From assembly GCA_030696085.1 (NCBI GenBank), contig JAUYNL010000090.1, forward strand, positions 1 through 38,478: a stretch of DNA of 38,478 bases, given 5' to 3'. Under the pieces are notes generated by a model that saw only the letters and a program-made list of their open reading frames with translations, was not told where the DNA came from and did not search any database. The stretch comes from Luteolibacter sp. GTDB taxonomy: Bacteria > Verrucomicrobiota > Verrucomicrobiia > Verrucomicrobiales > Akkermansiaceae. The position numbers and the translations under genes are program-made. The first letter of the stretch is position 1, and every line of letters starts with the position of its first letter. Positions 5,231-19,971 of the stretch are shown here, piece after piece.

Positions 5231-6649
<1,419 letters not shown>

Positions 6650-6681
6650 TCCTTCCGGATACACGGAAACTCCAGTCAATC

Positions 6682-6714
6682 AAAAGCCCGGGGTGGAAAC
6701 ACCCCGGGCTTTTT
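6682..6714 (+). terminator. Strong rho-independent terminator after eno
   Basis: A perfect 14-bp stem (6682-6695 with 6700-6713) closes a GAAA tetraloop (6696-6699), and four or five T follow. The 5' arm starts with AAAA, so the structure can also terminate minus-strand transcripts. Confidence 0.9.
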
Positions 6715-6790
6715 CGCGCCCAACTTTCTCACATTTCGAGGTGGCGGAGCCTGCGGCGGACTGATTGGATTCGCGGGTCATCATATCACC

Positions 6791-8077
6791 ATGAAACACA
6801 CACTTTTCATCCCCATCGCCTGCGCCGCCATGCTCGCGCCCGCTGCCGCACAGGACGCGCCTGCCGCCGCCTACGAGCAGGGCGCGCTGCTCAATGCCGC
6901 CGATCTCCTGCCCGCCGGCATGCTGCGCGGGACCTCGCACCGCGTCCGCGAACAAGTCGCAACGGATGGTTTCATGGCCCACTTTGAAATCGATACCGAC
7001 TTCGGCACCTTCGATGCCGTCGGCGTGCCCCAGGCAAAAAGCCGGATCGTCGAAGCGGACGCCATCCGCAAACTGGTGGAAACCAGCAAGGGCGATCTGT
7101 TTGCCGAAGGCTTGAAGCGCTCGATCAACCAACCCATCGATGCGGTGAAAAACATCGTCAAGGACCCCGTGCGCGCGGCGAAACAAGCGCCCAAAACCGT
7201 GGGCCACTTTTTCAGCAAGATCGGCACCTCCATCCAGCGCGGAGCCGAACGGGCCGGAGAGCAGATCCATGAGGCCTCCACCGGCGAGGTGGATTCCGGC
7301 ACCGCCGCATCACAAGCCGGCCGGGGCATCGGCGAGGCAGCCAAAAACGCCGCCGGTTTCGACAAGGCGCGGCTCGACACCGCGAAGCAACTCGGCGTGG
7401 ATCCCTACTCGGACAACGCCCGCCTTCAGGAGGAAATCGACAAGGTGACCTGGGCATTCTTCGCGGGCGGGCTGCCGCTGCGCATCGGCGCGGCCGTGGC
7501 CTCCGCCGGCGTCGCCGTGGCCGCCACCAACATGGTCGGAATCCCGGACGACACCTACGCCCTGACCCAGGCGGAACTCACCCTGCGCGATGCGAAATCC
7601 CTCAGCGCCATGGGAGTCAGCGAAGCGGACATCAAGGCCTTTCAATTGAGCCGCATTCTGAGCACCACGCGCCGCCACCGCATTGTGACCTCCTTGGCAG
7701 ACCTTTCCCATGCCAGGGGCCGCGGCGACATCGTGCAACTTGCCAGTTCATGCAGCACGGCCGGACAAGCGGATTTCCTCATCGGCGCGCTGGCGATCCT
7801 GGTGGAACGGCAACGCGGAGGCGCGGCCGATTACGTGGCCCTCAGCGTGCTTGGCCGCCTCCCGGGAGCCACCACCGCAGCCGGTGCATTGGAAGTGCCC
7901 GCACCCGTCGATCACGTCACCTGGACCGGGCAAGTCGCGGATTTTGCAAAGCGCGACGACCTTGGCACCGCGCCCAAAATGCTGGTTCACACCGGCACCC
8001 TCTCGCCCGCCACCACCGCCGGCTTCGCCGCAGCAGGCTGGCAGACGCTAGGCGTGGCCTATCCGCACGGGCGCTGA
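6791..8077 (+). CDS. Exported protein of unknown function
   Basis: The protein has 428 residues and I do not recognise its family. It starts with a signal peptide (MKHTLFIPIACAAMLAPAAA, cleavage probably after AQ-DA). Residues ~110-190 form a basic, Ala/Lys-rich helical region (INQPIDAVKNIVKDPVRAAK, HFFSKIGTSIQRGAERAGEQ). A small hydrophobic stretch near residue 225-245 (LPLRIGAAVASAGVAVAA) may enter the membrane, and the C-terminal half is mixed and has two Cys. No catalytic motif is visible. The gene stands alone after the eno terminator and converges on the AraC-type gene with 65 bp between stops. Confidence 0.6.
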   Translation: MKHTLFIPIACAAMLAPAAAQDAPAAAYEQGALLNAADLLPAGMLRGTSHRVREQVATDGFMAHFEIDTDFGTFDAVGVPQAKSRIVEADAIRKLVETSKGDLFAEGLKRSINQPIDAVKNIVKDPVRAAKQAPKTVGHFFSKIGTSIQRGAERAGEQIHEASTGEVDSGTAASQAGRGIGEAAKNAAGFDKARLDTAKQLGVDPYSDNARLQEEIDKVTWAFFAGGLPLRIGAAVASAGVAVAATNMVGIPDDTYALTQAELTLRDAKSLSAMGVSEADIKAFQLSRILSTTRRHRIVTSLADLSHARGRGDIVQLASSCSTAGQADFLIGALAILVERQRGGAADYVALSVLGRLPGATTAAGALEVPAPVDHVTWTGQVADFAKRDDLGTAPKMLVHTGTLSPATTAGFAAAGWQTLGVAYPHGR

Positions 8078-10269: not shown

Positions 10270-11019
10270 ATGAAATTCCGACAACTATTGCCAGCTCTCG
10301 CAGGGTTGCACTGCGCTTCTGCCGCGGATAACAACGAACTCTCCCGCCAGGCCACGGATCCGACGGCTTCGCTGATGGCGCTGAATTTCCAGTGCACCTA
10401 CATCGGCGGCTATCATGGCGCGGCTCCTCCCGGACAGCCGGATGACGCCTTCCAATTCGCCTTCCGGCCTGTCATCCCGTTCGAGGCATTCGGCAAGCCC
10501 AACATCCTGCGGCTGACGATGCCGTTTCAAACCGGCGGCCGCGGAGAGGAGGGCTTCAAGCCGATCTCGCTATTCGACCTGATGGTTTTCAACGAGAGCT
10601 GGGGCCGCTGGGGAATCGGCCCGGTGATGACCTTCGACACCACGGGCGACCTGCCCGACGAATTCGTCATCGGCCCGGCAGTCGGCGGAGTCTGGCAGGT
10701 GAACAAGAAGTTCAACATCGGTCTCTTCACCCAGAACGTCTTCTGGAGCGACACCGCCGTCACCCAGATCCAACCGGTCATTGCCTATCAGCTAGGCGAC
10801 GGCTGGTCTCTCAGCGCGGGCGATCTCCAGTTCACCTACGATTGGGATGCCGCCCGCTGGGTGGATGTGCCGATCGGGATCCAGCTCGGCAAGGTGGTGA
10901 AACTCGGCGGCCTGCCCACCCGCTTCGCGATCAATCCACAATACAACCTCAAGAACGACCGCGGGCTCGAGGAGTGGCAGGTCACGTTTACCTTTACCGC
11001 GCTGTTCCCAACGTTTTAA
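10270..11019 (+). CDS. Predicted outer-membrane beta-barrel protein
   Basis: The protein has 249 residues with a signal peptide (MKFRQLLPALAGLHCASAAD). The mature part begins with NELSRQATDPTASLMALNFQ and continues as aromatic, amphipathic strands (YIGGYHGAAPPG, FAFRPVIPFEAFG, WGIGPVMTFDTTGD, FTFTALFPTF at the end). This pattern resembles the bacterial proteins often labelled 'neuromedin U' or hypothetical transporter, which are small barrels related to the Phenol_MetA_deg group. It follows the SphA-type gene by 17 bp, so the two are probably co-expressed and may act in the same transport step. The function is inferred from fold and context. Confidence 0.65.
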   Translation: MKFRQLLPALAGLHCASAADNNELSRQATDPTASLMALNFQCTYIGGYHGAAPPGQPDDAFQFAFRPVIPFEAFGKPNILRLTMPFQTGGRGEEGFKPISLFDLMVFNESWGRWGIGPVMTFDTTGDLPDEFVIGPAVGGVWQVNKKFNIGLFTQNVFWSDTAVTQIQPVIAYQLGDGWSLSAGDLQFTYDWDAARWVDVPIGIQLGKVVKLGGLPTRFAINPQYNLKNDRGLEEWQVTFTFTALFPTF

Positions 11020-11121: not shown

Positions 11122-12669
11122 ATGAAACCAATTCGCAACCTGCTCGTGCTCGGGCTGGCACTCCTCGGATCTGCCGCATACGGGCAGCAGAAGAAGCCCA
11201 ACATCCTCGTCATCTGGGGTGACGACATCGGCAACCAGAACATCAGCTACAACAGCCGTGGCATGATGGGCTACCAGACACCCAACATCGACCGCATCGC
11301 CAAGGAAGGCGTCGGTTTCACCGACTACTACGCCCAGCAGAGCTGCACGGCGGGGCGCGCGGCCTTCATCGGCGGCTCATGCCCGCTGCGCAACGGCATG
11401 CTCAAGGTCGGACTGCCCGGCGCGAAGGAAGGCTGGCAGAAGACCGACGTGACGATGGCCACGGTGCTCAAGGCGCAAGGCTACGCCACCGGCCAGTTCG
11501 GCAAGAACCACCAGGGCGACCGCGACGAGCATCTGCCCACGATGCACGGCTTCGACGAGTTTCTCGGCAATCTCTATCACCTCAATGCCGAGGAGGAGCC
11601 GGAAAACCTCGACTACCCGAAGGACCCGGCGTTTCTGAAAAAATACGGCCCGCGCGGCGTGCTCCACTGTTGGGCCGACGGCAAGGGCGGCCAGAAGATT
11701 GAAAACACCGGCCCGCTGACCAAAAAGCGCATGGAGACCATCGATGATGAAACCGTGGCAGCCGCCAAGGACTTCATCACCCGCCAGGCCAAGGCCGACA
11801 AACCGTTCTTCTGCTGGTGGAACGGCACCCGCATGCACTTCCGCACCCATGTGAAGGCGGAGCACCGCGGCATTTCCGGGCAGGACGAATACAGCGATGG
11901 CATGGTCGAACACGACATGCAGGTGGGCGAGTTGCTCAAGGTCATCGACGAGCTCGGCCTCGCGGACAACACCATCGTCCAATATTCCACGGACAACGGT
12001 CCGCATTACAATTCGTGGCCGGATGCCGGGACCACGCAGTTCCGCAGTGAAAAGAACACCAACTGGGAAGGTGCCTATCGCGTTTCCTGCTTCGTGCGCT
12101 GGCCTAACCATATTCCTGCGGGCACCATGCTCAACGGCATCGCCTCGCACGAAGACTGGCTGACCACCTTCGCCGCCGCCGCCGGTGCGCCGGACATCAA
12201 GGAAAAGCTGCTCACGGGCGTGGAACTCAACGGCCGCACCTACAAGAACCACCTCGATAGCTACAACCTGCTCGACTACCTGAGCGGCAAGACCAAGGAA
12301 TCGCCACGCAAGGAGTTCATCTATGCAAATGACATCGGCGAGATCGTGGCCGCCCGCGTGAACGACTGGAAGGTCGTTTACATGGAAAACCGGGCCGAGA
12401 CCATGTCTCTGTGGCGCGAACCATTCGTCGAGCTGCGCGCCCCGCTGCTCTTCAACCTGCGGCGCGATCCATTGGAAAAAGCCCAGCATAACTCGAACAC
12501 CTACAACGATTGGTGGATCGATCACGTTTACGGCATCACGCCGGCCACGGATGTGGTCGCGAAGTTCCTCATGACCTTCAAGAATTACCCGGCCAGCCAG
12601 ACGGCGGGTTCGTTCAACCTGACGAAAATGCAGAAGCAGATCGAGGAAATGGGCAAAGCCAGCAAGTGA
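11122..12669 (+). CDS. Exported type I sulfatase (CTAGR active site)
   Basis: The protein has 515 residues and a signal peptide (MKPIRNLLVLGLALLGSAAY). It hydrolyses sulfate esters in the envelope. The metal-binding pair is Asp34-Asp35 (VIWGDDIG). The formylglycine cysteine is Cys75 in SCTAGRAAF, a C-x-A-x-R form of the sulfatase signature. The second metal site is Asp291-Asn292 (STDNGPH). The cysteine must be oxidised by a formylglycine-generating enzyme or anSME, neither of which is in the window. It is more compact than the two sulfatases downstream and is not a close copy of them. A hairpin follows the stop. Confidence 0.9.
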   Translation: MKPIRNLLVLGLALLGSAAYGQQKKPNILVIWGDDIGNQNISYNSRGMMGYQTPNIDRIAKEGVGFTDYYAQQSCTAGRAAFIGGSCPLRNGMLKVGLPGAKEGWQKTDVTMATVLKAQGYATGQFGKNHQGDRDEHLPTMHGFDEFLGNLYHLNAEEEPENLDYPKDPAFLKKYGPRGVLHCWADGKGGQKIENTGPLTKKRMETIDDETVAAAKDFITRQAKADKPFFCWWNGTRMHFRTHVKAEHRGISGQDEYSDGMVEHDMQVGELLKVIDELGLADNTIVQYSTDNGPHYNSWPDAGTTQFRSEKNTNWEGAYRVSCFVRWPNHIPAGTMLNGIASHEDWLTTFAAAAGAPDIKEKLLTGVELNGRTYKNHLDSYNLLDYLSGKTKESPRKEFIYANDIGEIVAARVNDWKVVYMENRAETMSLWREPFVELRAPLLFNLRRDPLEKAQHNSNTYNDWWIDHVYGITPATDVVAKFLMTFKNYPASQTAGSFNLTKMQKQIEEMGKASK

Positions 12670-12747: not shown

Positions 12748-14403
12748 ATGAGAATCAACCACAAGCCTGACATCACCGCTGTTGCGCTCGCTTGCACGCT
12801 GGGTTTCATCACAACCATCGCCCGCGCCGAAGACCCGCTTCCGTCCTGGAACGACGGCAAGGCCAAGCAGTCGATCATTGATTTCGTCACGAAAGTGACC
12901 AAAGCAGGCTCGCCGGATTTCGTGCCCGTCCCCGAACGCATTGCCGTGTATGACAACGACGGCACGCTCTGGTGCGAACAGCCGGTGCCAGTGCAGTTTT
13001 ACTATGTGGCGGACCGGGTGAAAGCGCTCTCGCCTCAGCATCCCGAGTGGAAAGAGAAGGAGCCGTTCGCCTCGCTGCTCCGGGGCGATGTGAAAGCTGC
13101 GCTCGAAGGCAGCGGCGATCACGGGCTCATGGAACTCTTCATGGCCACACACACCGGCATGACCACTGACGAGTTCGCGCAGCAGGTCAAAGACTGGATC
13201 ACCACCGCGAAACATCCGCAGACCGGCAAGCGCTTCGTGGACATGACCTATCAGCCGATGCTCGAGGTGCTCGCCTATCTGCGCGCCAACGGCTTCAAGA
13301 ACTTCATCGTCTCCGGCGGCGGCATCGAGTTCATGCGTCCGTGGACGGAAGCGGCCTATGGCATCCCGCCGGAACAAGTCGTCGGCAGCAGCATGAAGAC
13401 GAAGTTCGAGCTGCGCGACGGCAAGGCCGTGCTCGTGCGCCTGCCGCAGTTGAACTTCAATGACGACAAGGCAGACAAACCCGTGGGCATCAACCAGCAC
13501 ATCGGCCGCCGGCCCATCGCCGCGTTCGGAAACTCCGTGGGTGACCAGCAGATGCTCGAATACGCGCAAGGCGGCAGCGGCGCGCGCTTCGAACTGCTCG
13601 TGTTGCACGATGACGCCGCCCGCGAATTCGCCTATGGCCCGGCGCGCGGGCTGCCGGATGTGAAATACGGTTACTTCACGCCCGCGCTGGAAGAACATGC
13701 GAAGAAGGACGGCTGGACCGTGGTCAGCATGAAGGACGATTGGAAGCAAGTCTTCCCCGCCGCGCCGTCGGAGGTCACGGCCATCGACATCCTGCTAGAG
13801 CCGGATGCCACGATGCTCAAACATTCCGCCGGGAACAACGCCCGCCTGCTCAAGGCCTATCCGAAAGGTTTCTCCCTCGATGATGCCCACACGCCGCACA
13901 TCACGATGCTCCAGTGCTTCGCCCGCACCGCGGATATCGACAAGCTTTATGCCGCCGCCGGCAGGGTGCTGGCCGCCGCGGATGTGACCTCGATGAAGCT
14001 GGAGGCCTTCAAATACTACTACGCCCCTGCCGGCGCGACGGGCGTGGCCGGGATCTGCGCGAAGCCGACGCCGGAAATCCTCAAACTCCAGGCGGACATC
14101 ATCGCCGCGGTGAAGCCCTATCTGGCGGAAGCCGGCCCCATCGGCGCGTTCACCGCGCCGCACGATGATGCAGCCACCGACAATGCCCTCATCGGATATG
14201 TTTCCGCGTTTGTGCCGAAGTATTCCGGAGCGAACTTCAATCCCCACGTCAGCACCGGCGTCGCGCCCAAGGAATACCTCGACCGGATGCTCCAGGAGCC
14301 ATTTGAAGCATTCACCTTTTCACCCGCAGGAGCGGCCGTTTACCAACTCGGCCCATTCGGCACGGCGGCGAAAAAACTCAAAGCATGGGATTTGAAACAC
14401 TAA
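12748..14403 (+). CDS. Exported HAD phosphatase fused to a 2H phosphoesterase-like domain
   Basis: The protein has 551 residues and a signal peptide (through ~residue 27, TTIARAED). Residues ~30-335 are a HAD-superfamily hydrolase: nucleophile motif YDNDGTLW (Asp69, Asp71), motif II VSGGG, and motif IV GNSVGDQQM. Residues ~345-551 look like a 2H phosphoesterase / 2'-5' RNA ligase-like domain, with two H-x-[ST] motifs: HIT (His384) and HVS (His500), about 115 residues apart. HAD enzymes of this type remove phosphate from monoesters, and 2H enzymes open cyclic phosphates or cleave 2'-5' links, so the two halves could act in sequence. The gene lies between two sulfatase genes. The 2H assignment rests on motifs only. 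Confidence 0.75.
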   Translation: MRINHKPDITAVALACTLGFITTIARAEDPLPSWNDGKAKQSIIDFVTKVTKAGSPDFVPVPERIAVYDNDGTLWCEQPVPVQFYYVADRVKALSPQHPEWKEKEPFASLLRGDVKAALEGSGDHGLMELFMATHTGMTTDEFAQQVKDWITTAKHPQTGKRFVDMTYQPMLEVLAYLRANGFKNFIVSGGGIEFMRPWTEAAYGIPPEQVVGSSMKTKFELRDGKAVLVRLPQLNFNDDKADKPVGINQHIGRRPIAAFGNSVGDQQMLEYAQGGSGARFELLVLHDDAAREFAYGPARGLPDVKYGYFTPALEEHAKKDGWTVVSMKDDWKQVFPAAPSEVTAIDILLEPDATMLKHSAGNNARLLKAYPKGFSLDDAHTPHITMLQCFARTADIDKLYAAAGRVLAAADVTSMKLEAFKYYYAPAGATGVAGICAKPTPEILKLQADIIAAVKPYLAEAGPIGAFTAPHDDAATDNALIGYVSAFVPKYSGANFNPHVSTGVAPKEYLDRMLQEPFEAFTFSPAGAAVYQLGPFGTAAKKLKAWDLKH

Positions 14404-14424
14404 CCTCACTTGAACCGCATCACC

Positions 14425-16776
14425 ATGAAAACCAAACTCGTTTGCCTCGCACTGGGCACGTTCTTATGCCCTGTGGCCGGCGCGCAGGAAATCCTCCCCT
14501 TCCCGCCCGTGCCCTCCGGCTCCACGGCGGGACTGACGATTCAGGATTCCACCTATAAGAAACGCGTCGAGCCGAAACGCCTGGCCGAAGGCGCGCCCAA
14601 CATCCTGATCATCCTGATGGACGACGTGGGACCGGGAACTCCATCCACCTATGGCGGAGAAATCAACACGCCGACGCTGGATCGCGTGGCAAAACTGGGC
14701 GTTTCGTTCAACCGCTTCCACTCCACCGCCATGTGCTCCCCGACCCGCGCGTCCTTGCTTTGCGGACGCAACCACACGCGCGTCGGCAATGGCCAGATCG
14801 CGGCGATCGCGAATGATTTCGATGGCTTCAGCGGCACGATCCCGAAATCGTCCGCGACGGTCGCCGAAGTGCTGAAAAACTACGGCTACAACACCGGCGC
14901 TTGGGGCAAGTGGCACAACACGCCCGAGGAGCAGATCACCAGCAAAGGGCCGTTCGACTATTGGCCGACCGGCTACGGTTTCGAATATTTCTACGGATTC
15001 CTGGCAGGTGAAGCCTCTCAGTATGAACCGACACTCACCCGCAACACCAGCCCGGTCACCGCGCATCTTCCCAAGGATTACCATCTAACGGACGATATCG
15101 CGTCGGACGCCATCACCTGGCTGCGCGAGCAGAAAGCCTACGCACCGGACAAACCCTTCTTCATGTATTGGGCACCGGGCGCATCCCACGGACCGCACCA
15201 GATCATGAAAGAATGGGCGGACAAGTACAAGGGCAAGTTCGACGACGGTTGGGACAAGTATCGCGAACGCACGTTCGCACGCGCGAAGGCGAAAAGCTGG
15301 ATCCCGCAAAACGCGCAACTCACACCGCGCCCGGAATCGATGGCTTCGTGGGATTCCATCCCCGAGGACGAAAAACCCTTCCAGCGCCGCCTGATGGAAG
15401 TATTCGCCGGTTTCACCGAACATGCCGACTACAACGCCGGGCGAGTGATCGACGAAATCGAGCGTCAGGGAAAACTCGACAACACCCTCATCTTCTACAT
15501 CTGGGGCGACAACGGTTCCTCCGCTGAAGGCCTCTACGGCACCATCAGCGAGCAGCTCGCGCAGAACGGCATCCCCACGAAAATTTCCCAACACCTTGAC
15601 GCACTCAAGGAACTCGGCGGACTCGACGCCCTCGGTGGCCCGAAGACCGACAACATGTATCACGCCGCCTGGGCCTGGGCGGGCAGCACGCCTTACAAGT
15701 CCACCAAACTCGTCGGAGCCCACTTCGGCGGCACCCGCCAGCCGATGGCCGTTTCATGGCCTAAACGCATCAAGGCGGACCCGACCGCACGGCCGCAGTT
15801 CCACCACGTCATCGACATCGCACCGACGATTTATGAACTGACGAAAATCACTCCTCCCAAGGTCGTGAACGGCTTCGAACAGGATTCCATCGACGGCGTG
15901 AGCATGGCCTACACCTTCGCGGATGCCAAGGCACCGGGTACCCGCAAAACCCAGTTCTTCGACATCATGGCCAGCCGCGGGATCTATCATGACGGTTGGT
16001 TCGCCAGCGCCCCGGGACCGCGCGAACCATGGGTTGGCGGAATCCCGAAAGGTGTGAAGGAATGGTCGCCCCTAACCGACAAATGGGAGCTCTACAATCT
16101 CGAAGAAGACTGGAGTCAGGCAAACGATCTAGCCGCCAGCAACCCCAAGAAGCTGGAGGAAATGAAACTGCTTTTCCTAGTAGAATCCACGAAGAACAAA
16201 AACCTGCCCATCGGTGGCGGTTTGTGGTCCACCGCGCTGTTCCACCCGGAAGACGCGCCCGCATCGCCACTCACCGAGTGGACTTTCGATGCCCCCATCA
16301 CCCGCATGCCGGAATCCGCCGCCCCCAAACTCGGCAAGCAGGACAGCCTGGTGACCATGGAAGTGGACGTTCCTGAAAACGCAAACGGCGTGCTTTACGC
16401 GCTCGCCGGTTTCTCCGGAGGCGTCACCTGCTACGTGAAAGACGGTTTCCTCTGTTATGAGTTCAACCTGTTCGAAGTCCAGCGCACCAAGCTCAAGTCC
16501 AAGGACAAGCTGCCGACCGGAAAAATCAAAGTCGAAGTCGAATCGAAACTAACCGCCAAGATCGGCGGGCCGATGGATGTCTCGCTCAAAGTGAACGGCA
16601 AGGAGGTGGCGAAAGCCCAGGTCCCATCCGCCATGTCGCTCCACTTCACTTCCAACGCGACTTTCGACATCGGCACGGATCTCGATTCGCCAGTCTCGCT
16701 CGACTACTTCGACCAGGCACCTTTCGCCTTCAATGGCACCATCGGCACCACGACGATCAAGTATCTGAAAAAGTAG
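14425..16776 (+). CDS. Long exported arylsulfatase (CSPTR active site), copy 1
   Basis: The protein has 783 residues with a signal peptide ([20 protein letters not shown]). The sulfatase core has the metal pair in ILMDDVG, the formylglycine cysteine Cys104 in [24 protein letters not shown], the substrate-side [14 protein letters not shown] and the second metal site WGDNGSS. After ~residue 600 comes a beta-sandwich-like C-terminal domain ([17 protein letters not shown]). Length and internal motifs match the ~790-residue arylsulfatase type known from mycobacterial AtsA/AtsD. It is strongly similar along its whole length to the gene at 17617. An in-frame TTG at 14410 is less likely as a start because the signal peptide begins at ATG 14425. 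Confidence 0.9.
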
Positions 16777-16822: not shown

Positions 16823-17545
16823 ATGAGAAACAAACTGATCGCCGAGTTTTTCGGCACCTTCTGGCTCGTCTTCGGCGGCTGCGGCAGCGCGGTCCTCGCG
16901 GCACTCTTCCTTACCAACGATGCGTCGCCCGTACAACTCGGAATCGGCTTCGTCGGCGTCTCGCTCGCCTTCGGCCTCACCGTGATGACCATGGCCTATG
17001 CCATCGGTCACATTTCCGGCTGCCATCTCAATCCCGCCGTCACCATTGGATTGTGCGTTGCAGGCCGCCACCCGAAGCAAGAAGCGCTTCCATACATCAT
17101 CGCCCAAGTGCTAGGCGGTCTGGCGGGAGCCGGGGTCTTGTATCTGATCGCAAGTGGTAAGGCCGGATTCAGCACAGCGGGCGGTTTCGCGTCCAATGGT
17201 TTCGGCGAACACTCCCCAGGCGGATATTCAATGGTCGCGGCGCTAGTTGCGGAGATCGTGCTCACGTTCTTCTTCCTGCTGATCATTCTTGGTGCCACCG
17301 ACAAACGCGCACCGCAGGGTTTCGCTCCCATCGCCATCGGCCTTGGCCTGACCTTGATCCACCTCATCGGCATCCCGGTCACCAACCTGTCAGTGAATCC
17401 AGCCCGCAGCACAGGCCCCGCGGTATTCGTCGGCGGCTGGGCCCTGGCTCAGTTGTGGCTGTTCTGGATCGCACCGATCGTCGGTGCCGCGCTGGCCGGC
17501 ATCGTCTATCCGCTGATGGCGGGAACTCCAAAAAAGGACATCTGA
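16823..17545 (+). CDS. aqpZ: Aquaporin Z-type water channel
   Basis: The protein has 240 residues with six membrane helices and two NPA loops: [10 protein letters not shown] and [13 protein letters not shown]. The N-terminal [18 protein letters not shown], the stretch EHSPGGYSM and [13 protein letters not shown] are near-identical to E. coli AqpZ. In the selectivity filter the His (LIHLI) and Arg (NPAR) are kept, but the residue matching Thr183 of AqpZ is Leu (TNLSVNP). The filter fits water rather than glycerol. It sits between two closely related sulfatase genes with short gaps (46 and 71 bp), an unusual home for a water channel. It may relieve osmotic load while sulfate is released, which is a guess. 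Confidence 0.93.
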
Positions 17546-17616: not shown

Positions 17617-19971
17617 ATGAAACTCCACCTCCTGTTGCTATCCGCAATTCTCAGCGTGCCTGTCTCCGCCGCGACGCCCGACGACGGCTCCGTGCTGCCG
17701 TTTCCACCCACGCCGATGTCCGACAGCGTGGCCAAGCCCCGCCTCCAGGACTCCACCATGAAATGGCCCGCGCAGCCGCAGCGCCTGCCGAAGGACGCAC
17801 CCAACATCCTCATCGTGCTGCTTGACGACATCGGCTTCGGCGTGGCGGACACCTTCGGCGGCGAGGTCCACACGCCGACGCTCACCAAGCTCGCCAACGA
17901 GGGACTGCGCTACAATGCCTTCCACACCACCGCCATCTGCTCGCCTACCCGTGCCGCGTTGCTGACAGGCAGAAACCACACCCGCGTCGGCTCCGGCACC
18001 ATCGCCGAGCGCGCGGTGGCTTTCGACGGCTACACCGGCGTGATCCCGAAGGAGGCCGCGACCGTTGCCGAAGTGCTGCATCACTACGGTTACCGCACCT
18101 CCGCCTTCGGCAAGTGGCACAACACGCCCGCGACCGAAACCACCAACATGGGACCGAAGGACCGCTGGCCTAACGGCTATGGCTTCGACTACTTCTACGG
18201 CTTCCTCGCCGGCGAGACCTCGCAGTGGGAACCGCGACTCGTGGAAAACTACAACACCGTCGAACCGCCGCACGACGATCCGAAGTATCACCTCACCGAA
18301 GACATGGTGAACAAGGCCCTCGCATGGATCGACGACCGCCAGTCCTATGCTCCTGACAAACCCTTTCTCATGTATTGGGCACCGGGCGCGGTCCACGGCC
18401 CGCATCACATTTTCCCCGAGTGGGCGGACAAATACAAAGGCAAGTTTGACGACGGTTGGGACGCCTATCGCGAACGCGTCCACAAGCGTCAGCTTGAGAT
18501 GGGCATCATCCCGCCCGGCACAAATCTGACGGTGCGCGACGAAACGATGGCCGCCTGGTCGGACATCCCTGAAAACCAACGCGATTTCCAACGCCGTGGC
18601 ATGGAACTCTTCGCCGGCTTCGTCGAACACACCGACGTGCAGGTCGGCCGCATCGTGGACGGCTTGGAACAACGCGGCCTGCGCGAGAATACGCTCATCC
18701 TCTACATCGTCGGCGACAACGGCTCCAGCTCCGAAGGCCAGCAAGGCTCCATCAGCGAGTTGTTAGCCCAGAACAACATTGCCAACACCGTGGAGCAGCA
18801 GATCGCCGCACTCGACAAACTCGGCGGCCTGCCCGCACTCGGTTCGCCAAAGACCGACAACATGTATCACGCCGGCTGGGCCTGGGCCGGATGCACGCCG
18901 TTCCGCAGCACCAAGCTCGTCGCCGCGCACTTCGGCGGCACCCGCAATCCGCTCGTCATTTCATGGCCGAAGGGCATCAAGCCGGACAAAGCCGTGCGCT
19001 CCCAATTCGCCCACTGCACGGACGTGGTGCCTACGATTTATGACCTGCTGAAGATCACACCACCGAAAACGGTGAACGGCCTGGACCAGATGAAAATCGA
19101 CGGCCACAGCTTCGCAGCCACCTTTGACAAGGGCGACACGCCCCCGGCTAACACCGTGCAGTTCTTCGACAACAACGGCAGCCGCGCCATCTACAAGGAC
19201 GGCTGGATGGCCTGCGCCTTCGGCCCGCTCTATCCGTGGAACACACCCGCCTCGCTGCCGCGCCTCGCCAAATGGGACTCCGCCACTGACGAGTGGGAGC
19301 TTTTCAACATCAAGGAGGATTTCTCCCAAGCTAACAACCTAGCCGCCTCCAACCCCGAAAAACTCGCGGAACTCCAGAAGGAATTCCTCGTCCTCTCCGA
19401 GGACAACCACGCCTTCCCGATCGGTGCGGGCAATTGGCTCCGCATGCGCCCTCAAGACCGCGTCTCCACACCTTACCGGAGCTGGACTTTCACCGAGAAC
19501 ACCCGCCGCATGCCCGAATTCACAGCACCCGGTCTCGGCCGCGAGAGCAACGTGGTGGAGATCGACCTGGAATGCGGCGACAACGCGAGCGGCGTGCTCT
19601 ACGCCCTCGGCGGTTCCGGCGGCGGCCTCGCGCTCTACATGGACAAAGGCTACGTCGTTTATCTCTACAACATGATGATCATCGAGCAATACGAAGCCCG
19701 CAGTGAAAAACCACTGGCCGCAGGCAAGCACAAGATCGTCATTGATACGACCATCGCCGGCCCCGGCAAGCCCGGCACCGCGGTGATCACCGTGGATGGC
19801 ACCGAGATCGGGAAAACCGAACTCAAACGCACCGTGCCCGCGGCCTTTACCGCCAGCGAGAGCCTCGATATCGGCATGGACCTCGGCTCCACCGTCGCCG
19901 AGGCCTACGCCGAGCGCCGGCCTTACAGGTTCGACGGCAAGATCAGCACCGTGAAGGTCGCATTGAAATAA
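17617..19971 (+). CDS. Long exported arylsulfatase (CSPTR active site), copy 2
   Basis: The protein has 784 residues with a signal peptide (MKLHLLLLSAILSVPVSAAT). It shares the motif set and domain order of the 14425 gene: VLLDDIGFG, Cys108 in ICSPTRAALLTGRNHTR, FGKWHNTP, FRSTKLVAAHFGGTR, VGDNGSSSEG, then a C-terminal beta-sandwich (CGDNASGVLYALGGSGG). The two clearly arose by duplication, but they differ throughout, so the duplication is old and the copies may prefer different substrates. FGly maturation is required for activity. The stop lies 4 nt before the DUF502 start, so the two are likely co-translated. Confidence 0.9.
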   Translation: MKLHLLLLSAILSVPVSAATPDDGSVLPFPPTPMSDSVAKPRLQDSTMKWPAQPQRLPKDAPNILIVLLDDIGFGVADTFGGEVHTPTLTKLANEGLRYNAFHTTAICSPTRAALLTGRNHTRVGSGTIAERAVAFDGYTGVIPKEAATVAEVLHHYGYRTSAFGKWHNTPATETTNMGPKDRWPNGYGFDYFYGFLAGETSQWEPRLVENYNTVEPPHDDPKYHLTEDMVNKALAWIDDRQSYAPDKPFLMYWAPGAVHGPHHIFPEWADKYKGKFDDGWDAYRERVHKRQLEMGIIPPGTNLTVRDETMAAWSDIPENQRDFQRRGMELFAGFVEHTDVQVGRIVDGLEQRGLRENTLILYIVGDNGSSSEGQQGSISELLAQNNIANTVEQQIAALDKLGGLPALGSPKTDNMYHAGWAWAGCTPFRSTKLVAAHFGGTRNPLVISWPKGIKPDKAVRSQFAHCTDVVPTIYDLLKITPPKTVNGLDQMKIDGHSFAATFDKGDTPPANTVQFFDNNGSRAIYKDGWMACAFGPLYPWNTPASLPRLAKWDSATDEWELFNIKEDFSQANNLAASNPEKLAELQKEFLVLSEDNHAFPIGAGNWLRMRPQDRVSTPYRSWTFTENTRRMPEFTAPGLGRESNVVEIDLECGDNASGVLYALGGSGGGLALYMDKGYVVYLYNMMIIEQYEARSEKPLAAGKHKIVIDTTIAGPGKPGTAVITVDGTEIGKTELKRTVPAAFTASESLDIGMDLGSTVAEAYAERRPYRFDGKISTVKVALK

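Follow-up and report, generated by a model that had tools for sequence, protein, structure and literature searches.

Why should a bacterium carry two hydrolases of phosphate esters in a single, apparently exported chain, and why should the gene for this chain lie among sulfatase genes? This is the question raised by a locus of Luteolibacter sp., contained in a window of 38,478 nucleotides (the whole stretch of DNA that was analysed), in which an initial annotation had recognized a haloacid dehalogenase-type (HAD) phosphatase fused to a 2H phosphoesterase-like domain. The open reading frame at 12748-14403 on the plus strand codes for 551 amino acids, starts with ATG and runs without an internal stop, and the gene occurs only once in the genome, which comprises 3.77 Mb in 110 contigs. 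The HAD-2H fusion is confirmed as a real two-domain reading frame.

A two-domain protein between sulfatases

The gene and its immediate surroundings are composed as follows.

11122-12669, plus strand: sulfatase A, 515 amino acids, 78 bases upstream of the HAD-2H gene (PF00884; closest solved chain, the arylsulfatase 7aj0)
12748-14403, plus strand: HAD-2H fusion gene, 551 amino acids, both domains in one reading frame
12748-12828, plus strand: residues 1-27, signal-peptide-like N-terminus ahead of the HAD half (read from the sequence)
12829-13764, plus strand: HAD phosphatase half, residues 28-339 (phmmer match to 4ovy, Z 30.9, invariant motif residues)
12952-12966, plus strand: DNDGT, residues 69-73, HAD motif I (sequence and alignment of the fused rows)
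13774-14400, plus strand: 2H phosphoesterase-like half, residues 343-551 (PF13563; Z 13.4-15.3 to many 2H structures)
13897-13905, plus strand: H384-I-T386, first H-x-[ST] motif (alignments A2 and A4)
14245-14253, plus strand: H500-V-S502, second H-x-[ST] motif (alignments A2 and A4)
14410-16776, plus strand: second sulfatase, 788 amino acids, 6 bases downstream of the HAD-2H gene (PF00884; grouping with the PDB arylsulfatases 7all and 1hdh)
16823-17545, plus strand: aquaporin Z, probably part of this gene run (NF003838, over the cut-off)
17617-19971, plus strand: third sulfatase, 784 amino acids (PF00884)

The placement between sulfatase genes, as originally described, is borne out by the PF00884 matches on either side. 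Two further features of the window may be recorded here. Namely, a 249-residue protein encoded at 10270-11019 has no Pfam match at E 0.1, and relatives of it turn up next to HAD genes at several loci, while the segment 23643-32020 holds genes for DUF1501, DUF1549/DUF1553 and planctomycete cytochrome C and WD40 proteins, a set often met in Planctomycetes.

The N-terminus of the fusion protein has a basic start, a hydrophobic core and the sequence ARA/ED, which by eye make a putative signal peptide; residues 1-27 have pLDDT values below 50 in the structural model, and the match to 4ovy starts only at residue 28. Judging by this stretch, the protein is probably exported. The HAD half passes Pfam PF12710 with 44.1 bits (cut-off 27) and finds its closest solved relative in 4ovy, a HAD hydrolase of Planctomyces limnophilus, with E 9.4e-110 over residues 28-339 in phmmer, and with 55% identity in the Foldseek alignment and Z 30.9; the solved chain, however, has 310 residues and is without a 2H half. 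The phosphorylcholine phosphatase of P. aeruginosa, 4as2, resembles the HAD half at Z 15.7 with an rmsd of 5.3 over 241 residues, but it is only 17% identical and likewise has no 2H domain. The aspartates of the DNDGT sequence, D69 and D71, stand where they had first been reported, and together with S189, K244, N262 and D266 they are unchanged across the 29 fused rows of the alignment. We take these residues to be HAD motifs I-IV (D-x-D, S/T, K and the acidic motif, respectively), which are complete except that motif IV opens with Asn262 instead of Asp. Within the HAD half, the model is weak around two stretches, with block pLDDT values of 56 at residues 71-80 and 42-56 at residues 211-250.

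The C-terminal half belongs, by its predicted fold and its motifs, to the 2H phosphoesterase superfamily. In particular, residues 341-550 are modelled with block pLDDT values of 76-97, and the half aligns over approximately residues 341-551 with YjcG (Z 15.3), the plant Appr>p CPDase (14.9), drCPDase (14.8) and LigT (14.0), these alignments covering 161-174 residues at an rmsd of 3.3-3.7. The structure prediction originally proposed as a check thus returned a 2H fold carrying both motifs, and the refuting result named beforehand, a C-terminal half lacking this fold, did not arise. These are HIT at H384 and HVS at H500, as the initial annotation had them, and they lie at the starts of the modelled strands 385-393 and 500-507. 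Both histidines are kept in 36/36 proteins of alignment A2 and in 14/14 of alignment A4, which includes actinobacterial relatives, and it is this invariance that argues against a chance occurrence of the motifs. A further histidine, H381, three residues ahead of H384 in a D-x-x-H-x-P-H context, is invariant in the same 36 and 14 proteins. Pfam PF13563 (2_5_RNA_ligase2) scores 25.1 bits with the whole protein, under its cut-off of 27, and 28.7 bits, over it, with the 2H half by itself; all 14 proteins in the 2H alignment match it, with E values of up to 0.1.

Compared with the four 2H enzymes named above, which share the fold and the two H-x-[ST] motifs, the Luteolibacter domain is distant in sequence (8-19% identity in the 2H alignments listed), and it differs from LigT-type enzymes in being fused, in the signal-like N-terminal stretch and in the additional H381. 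The LigT/ThpR family TIGR02258 had no match across the genome at E 0.001 and was absent from the NCBIfam matches at E 0.1; a profile comparison of the 2H half with four LigT-like proteins was poor, with a probability of 4.9%, E 0.008 and the first motif only. Similarly, the 2H half matched no PHROG or PADLOC family and no phage record.

Recurrence of the 2H domain and its phosphatase partners

Genome contigs were scanned with the 209-residue 2H half, giving 51 loci, a set that was drawn by exact peptide patterns of the Luteolibacter domain and is therefore biased to close relatives. They span Verrucomicrobiota, Planctomycetota, Pseudomonadota, Acidobacteriota and Thermodesulfobacteriota. In 31 of them HAD and 2H share one reading frame, three of the 31 being imperfect: in L035 the HAD domain is truncated and preceded by a sulfatase stub, and L071 and L074 have a partial 2H domain. 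Six loci (L031, L042, L050, L053, L059 and L066) have a PAP2 phosphatase and 2H in one frame. In two (L025 and L029) 2H is a gene of its own, immediately preceded by that of a PafA relative, and in three (L057, L068 and L070) a separate HAD frame lies directly ahead of 2H, with L057 and L070 seemingly broken or incomplete. A HAD gene lies elsewhere in the locus in two cases (L046 and L067); in the latter, at 5908-7732 in Paraburkholderia, the order is reversed, with the 2H gene first and the HAD gene second. Neither HAD nor PAP2 nor PafA was found in four of the 51 loci (L037, L063, L064 and L069), and three (L048, L073 and L075) are too incomplete for classing.

Among the PAP2 fusions, the domain was confirmed by Pfam PF01569 in each of the three proteins scanned, out of eight PAP2-2H proteins known (E 2e-19 to 3e-18). 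The N-terminal part of L031 matches solved class A acid phosphatases (9htz at 2.7e-69, the E. blattae-type 1d2t at 5e-51 and PhoN 2akc at 3.5e-40), and the six PAP2 rows of alignment A3 carry K-x6-RP, PSGH and SR-x5-H-x3-D, which we take to be the class A acid phosphatase signature. The structural model of a PAP2-2H protein is poor (pLDDT 67 from 13 alignment rows). In sequence, the 2H domains fused to PAP2 are up to about 76% identical to that of Luteolibacter. In the PafA pairs, the phosphatase lies 42 (L025) and 57 (L029) bases upstream of 2H; the gene in L029 matches PafA (5tj3, 3.6e-86) and PhoK (3.7e-44), and the one in L025 matches PF01663 and the L029 protein. The HAD, PAP2 and alkaline-phosphatase folds are mutually unrelated, and three unlike phosphomonoesterases hence occupy the same place beside one 2H family.

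Other searches added PAP2-2H fusions outside the 51 loci, namely L021 in the same phylum (a larger stretch of this locus is L092) and L076 on a complete Ensifer plasmid. In all, 2H was found on seven plasmid records, six of which were examined; three of the six, from Streptomyces and Rhodococcus (L023, L024 and L078), have adjacent separate HAD and 2H genes, and on one, L079, 2H is present and HAD was not found. L079, L084 and L091 are further 2H genes, also outside the 51, without a phosphatase found nearby, and L091 is among the stand-alone 2H genes with signal-like starts. The stand-alone gene of L084 (4896-5675), on a contig from a viral collection, has such a start as well and adjoins a resolvase-like frame. 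Genes for a metallo-beta-lactamase fold and DUF1254 occur near 2H at 6640-8675 of L025, a Verrucomicrobiales MAG in which DUF1214 is also present, and at 1015-2391 and 9612-11141 of L024, a Rhodococcus plasmid.

In sampled genomes the 2H half matches in two of 387 genomes of the phylum and in four of 386 of the order, own included in each case; two of the other three in the order are L025 and L046. The phylum figure excludes L022, which was dropped as a 2H locus, its sequence reading as methionine synthase. HAD relatives without 2H are far commoner than fused ones. Namely, 17 of 59 genomes have a HAD relative, and only Luteolibacter's own match extends beyond residue 367; on plasmids, at least 80% of the query is covered in two of 223 records. 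As for the initial remark that no enzyme of this form had been described, we found no description of a HAD-2H fusion in the open literature covered by our search, but in genomes the form is widespread. The superfamilies themselves are known, but the architecture and the putatively exported 2H family appear, on that search, to be new.

If a sulfatase A relative is counted when it lies no more than 500 bases ahead of the unit, or ahead of the phosphatase gene where this is separate, 31 of the 51 loci have such a sulfatase: 20/31 HAD fusions, 3/6 PAP2 fusions, 2/2 PafA pairs and 3/3 split HAD pairs, along with L037 (a distant sulfatase of 33% identity), L046 and L069. HAD genes that lack 2H often have a sulfatase too, sulfatase A lying in the short flanks of nine of the 17 HAD loci from the 59 genomes, and for this reason the link to sulfatase is no less a feature of the phosphatase than of 2H; a PAP2 gene near a sulfatase but lacking 2H gave one weak lead in 288 genomes. 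The proposal that the substrate bears both phosphate and sulfate gains nothing here, as the sulfatase link does not point to one substrate esterified with both. When the other neighbours were clustered crudely, no family reached more than eight loci, and the largest clusters partly resemble shadow reading frames.

Partner exchange and apparent loss of the phosphatase

The tree of 54 2H domains leaves out L022, four fragments shorter than 150 residues (two from L069 and one each from L071 and L074), and L073 and L075, for which no 2H frame was obtained. Long branches are those of L024, L079 and L077 in this tree and of L039 in the HAD tree. On the 2H tree, the eight PAP2-fused rows need eight changes, at least six of which are forced by well-supported branches, and it follows that the pairing of 2H with PAP2 arose repeatedly. 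The PAP2-fused rows come together in 0/200 bootstrap trees, and the PAP2 label is no more clustered than shuffled labels (500/500 as low). Among the fused rows, switches between HAD and PAP2 take seven steps; L042, a PAP2 fusion, is sister to the HAD fusion L049 with support of 97/93, while some single placements are weak, such as that of L061 with L076 (98/56). Of the PAP2 loci, L031, L042 and L050 have a complete sulfatase A next to the fusion; these three sulfatases are closest to one another, at 80-85%, but the nearest relatives of their 2H domains sit in HAD-fused or PafA-adjacent loci, which indicates that 2H is the part that moved.

The same picture emerges from the HAD fusions. The Luteolibacter HAD domain groups with those of L049 and L058 (100/99), but its 2H domain falls outside the clade (100/99) holding the 2H domains of these two loci, and the HAD data reject this 2H clade (AU test, p 2.1e-5). 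Distances between HAD domains and between 2H domains are almost uncorrelated (Spearman 0.17 over 32 loci; 0.13 over 406 pairs). As judged from these trees and distances, the HAD and 2H halves recombine.

There are also loci that appear to have lost the catalytic part of the phosphatase, in or near frame, and to have kept 2H along with a signal-like stretch at the N-terminus. DNA comparison suggests this for L037 (5902-6642, Pseudomonas moorei) and L069 (5842-7483), where the signal region and 2H are kept and HAD is removed at the 2H boundary, and for L035 (5137-6627), where the start of a sulfatase, the end of HAD and 2H are kept. In the case of L037, a loss is favoured by its nesting among HAD-fused Pseudomonas rows on the 2H tree; L069, in contrast, has its 2H split over two frames and may be decayed or misassembled. 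Together with the stand-alone genes, such loci imply that a fused phosphatase is not required for 2H to act.

A possible two-step release of phosphate

What could the two halves do together? On balance we lean towards an exported enzyme that would release phosphate in two steps within one chain, as the initial annotation had envisaged. The 2H half would open a cyclic phosphodiester and so yield a phosphomonoester, from which the HAD half would then strip the phosphate; the likeliest substrate would be a 2',3'-cyclic nucleotide or another five-membered cyclic phosphate of that kind. With the sulfatases, the protein would form an outside-the-cell set for scavenging esterified phosphate and sulfate. 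A cyclic phosphate as the 2H substrate is suggested by superfamily membership, and we likewise infer the order of the steps and the nutritional role. Characterized 2H enzymes open 2',3'-cyclic phosphates. LigT converts 2',3'-cAMP to 2'-AMP (PMC5283653), and by this analogy the product of 2H would be a monoester on which a phosphatase could act. The best support for the two-step idea, albeit indirect, is the recurrent pairing of one 2H family with three unrelated phosphomonoesterases, by fusion to HAD or PAP2 or by adjacency to PafA, which suggests that the two halves work in succession. That said, the prevalence of HAD genes without 2H, the stand-alone 2H genes and the loci that lost their phosphatase all speak against it.

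The first two of these observations fit well with the chief rival, namely that the halves act on different substrates, HAD, PAP2 and PafA being general exported phosphatases and 2H an independent exported phosphodiesterase, so that the fusion merely shares a signal peptide and an expression unit in an esterase-scavenging operon. The recombination of the halves and the sulfatase as the commonest neighbour of all forms are in keeping with it too. However, an irrelevant partner would lead one to expect partners other than phosphomonoesterases, and the fused partners in the 51 loci are all phosphatases (HAD in 31, PAP2 in six), save for the sulfatase stub before the truncated HAD domain of L035. 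We regard independent halves as a possibility, though a rather doubtful one. Improbable, in our view, is that the 2H half instead cuts linear 2'-5' or 3'-5' linkages or, like some 2H proteins, merely holds nucleotides and leaves them uncleaved: the reaction cannot be read from the fold by itself, since Usb1, viral 2',5'-phosphodiesterases, Acb1 and the AKAP18 domain also match at Z 10-14, but both catalytic histidines are invariant, and beside a pure binder the phosphatases would be without a role.

A phosphomonoesterase as the natural next step after 2H has parallels in CpdB and the TULA proteins (PMC4905662, PMC10253181). E. coli CpdB, described there as a periplasmic 2',3'-cyclic phosphodiesterase and 3'-nucleotidase in one chain (PMC4905662), resembles the Luteolibacter protein in the proposed overall reaction and the exported location, but it has a metallophosphoesterase fold with one catalytic domain in place of HAD and 2H. 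TULA/STS (UBASH3) proteins likewise have a 2H and a phosphatase domain in one chain, and the 2H domain of TULA-2 is reported in that source to act on 2',3'-cyclic phosphate ends (PMC10253181); they are, however, eukaryotic signalling proteins with a histidine-phosphatase fold and SH3 and UBA domains. The CpdB family TIGR01390 had no sequence match anywhere in the Luteolibacter genome, and we considered this absence as support for a two-step role and set it aside: the family was unmatched in 21 of 39 genomes (own and 20 of 38 others), with none over the cut-off, so that its absence in one genome says little. The same holds for RNase T2, for which the Luteolibacter genome gave no match.

More tentatively, and with somewhat less than even confidence, we suggest a widespread modular system in which recombination, always at one domain boundary and reaching across phyla, may have coupled a single exported 2H cyclic-phosphodiesterase domain again and again to the exported phosphomonoesterase that happens to follow the sulfatase gene, be it HAD, PafA or a class A acid phosphatase. 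Such an exported route of cyclic-phosphate scavenging would have evolved independently of CpdB. To our knowledge, bacterial members of the 2H superfamily are mostly without an assigned role. The HAD-, PAP2- and PafA-2H loci show plainly how a domain can change partners time after time at its boundary, and the natural series of partners (HAD, PAP2, PafA and none) may be read as so many separate hints, one for each partner, that the 2H product is a phosphomonoester. If the two-step reading is true, then Verrucomicrobiota, Planctomycetota, Acidobacteriota and Pseudomonadota would have a 2H-based means of using cyclic phosphates outside the cell.
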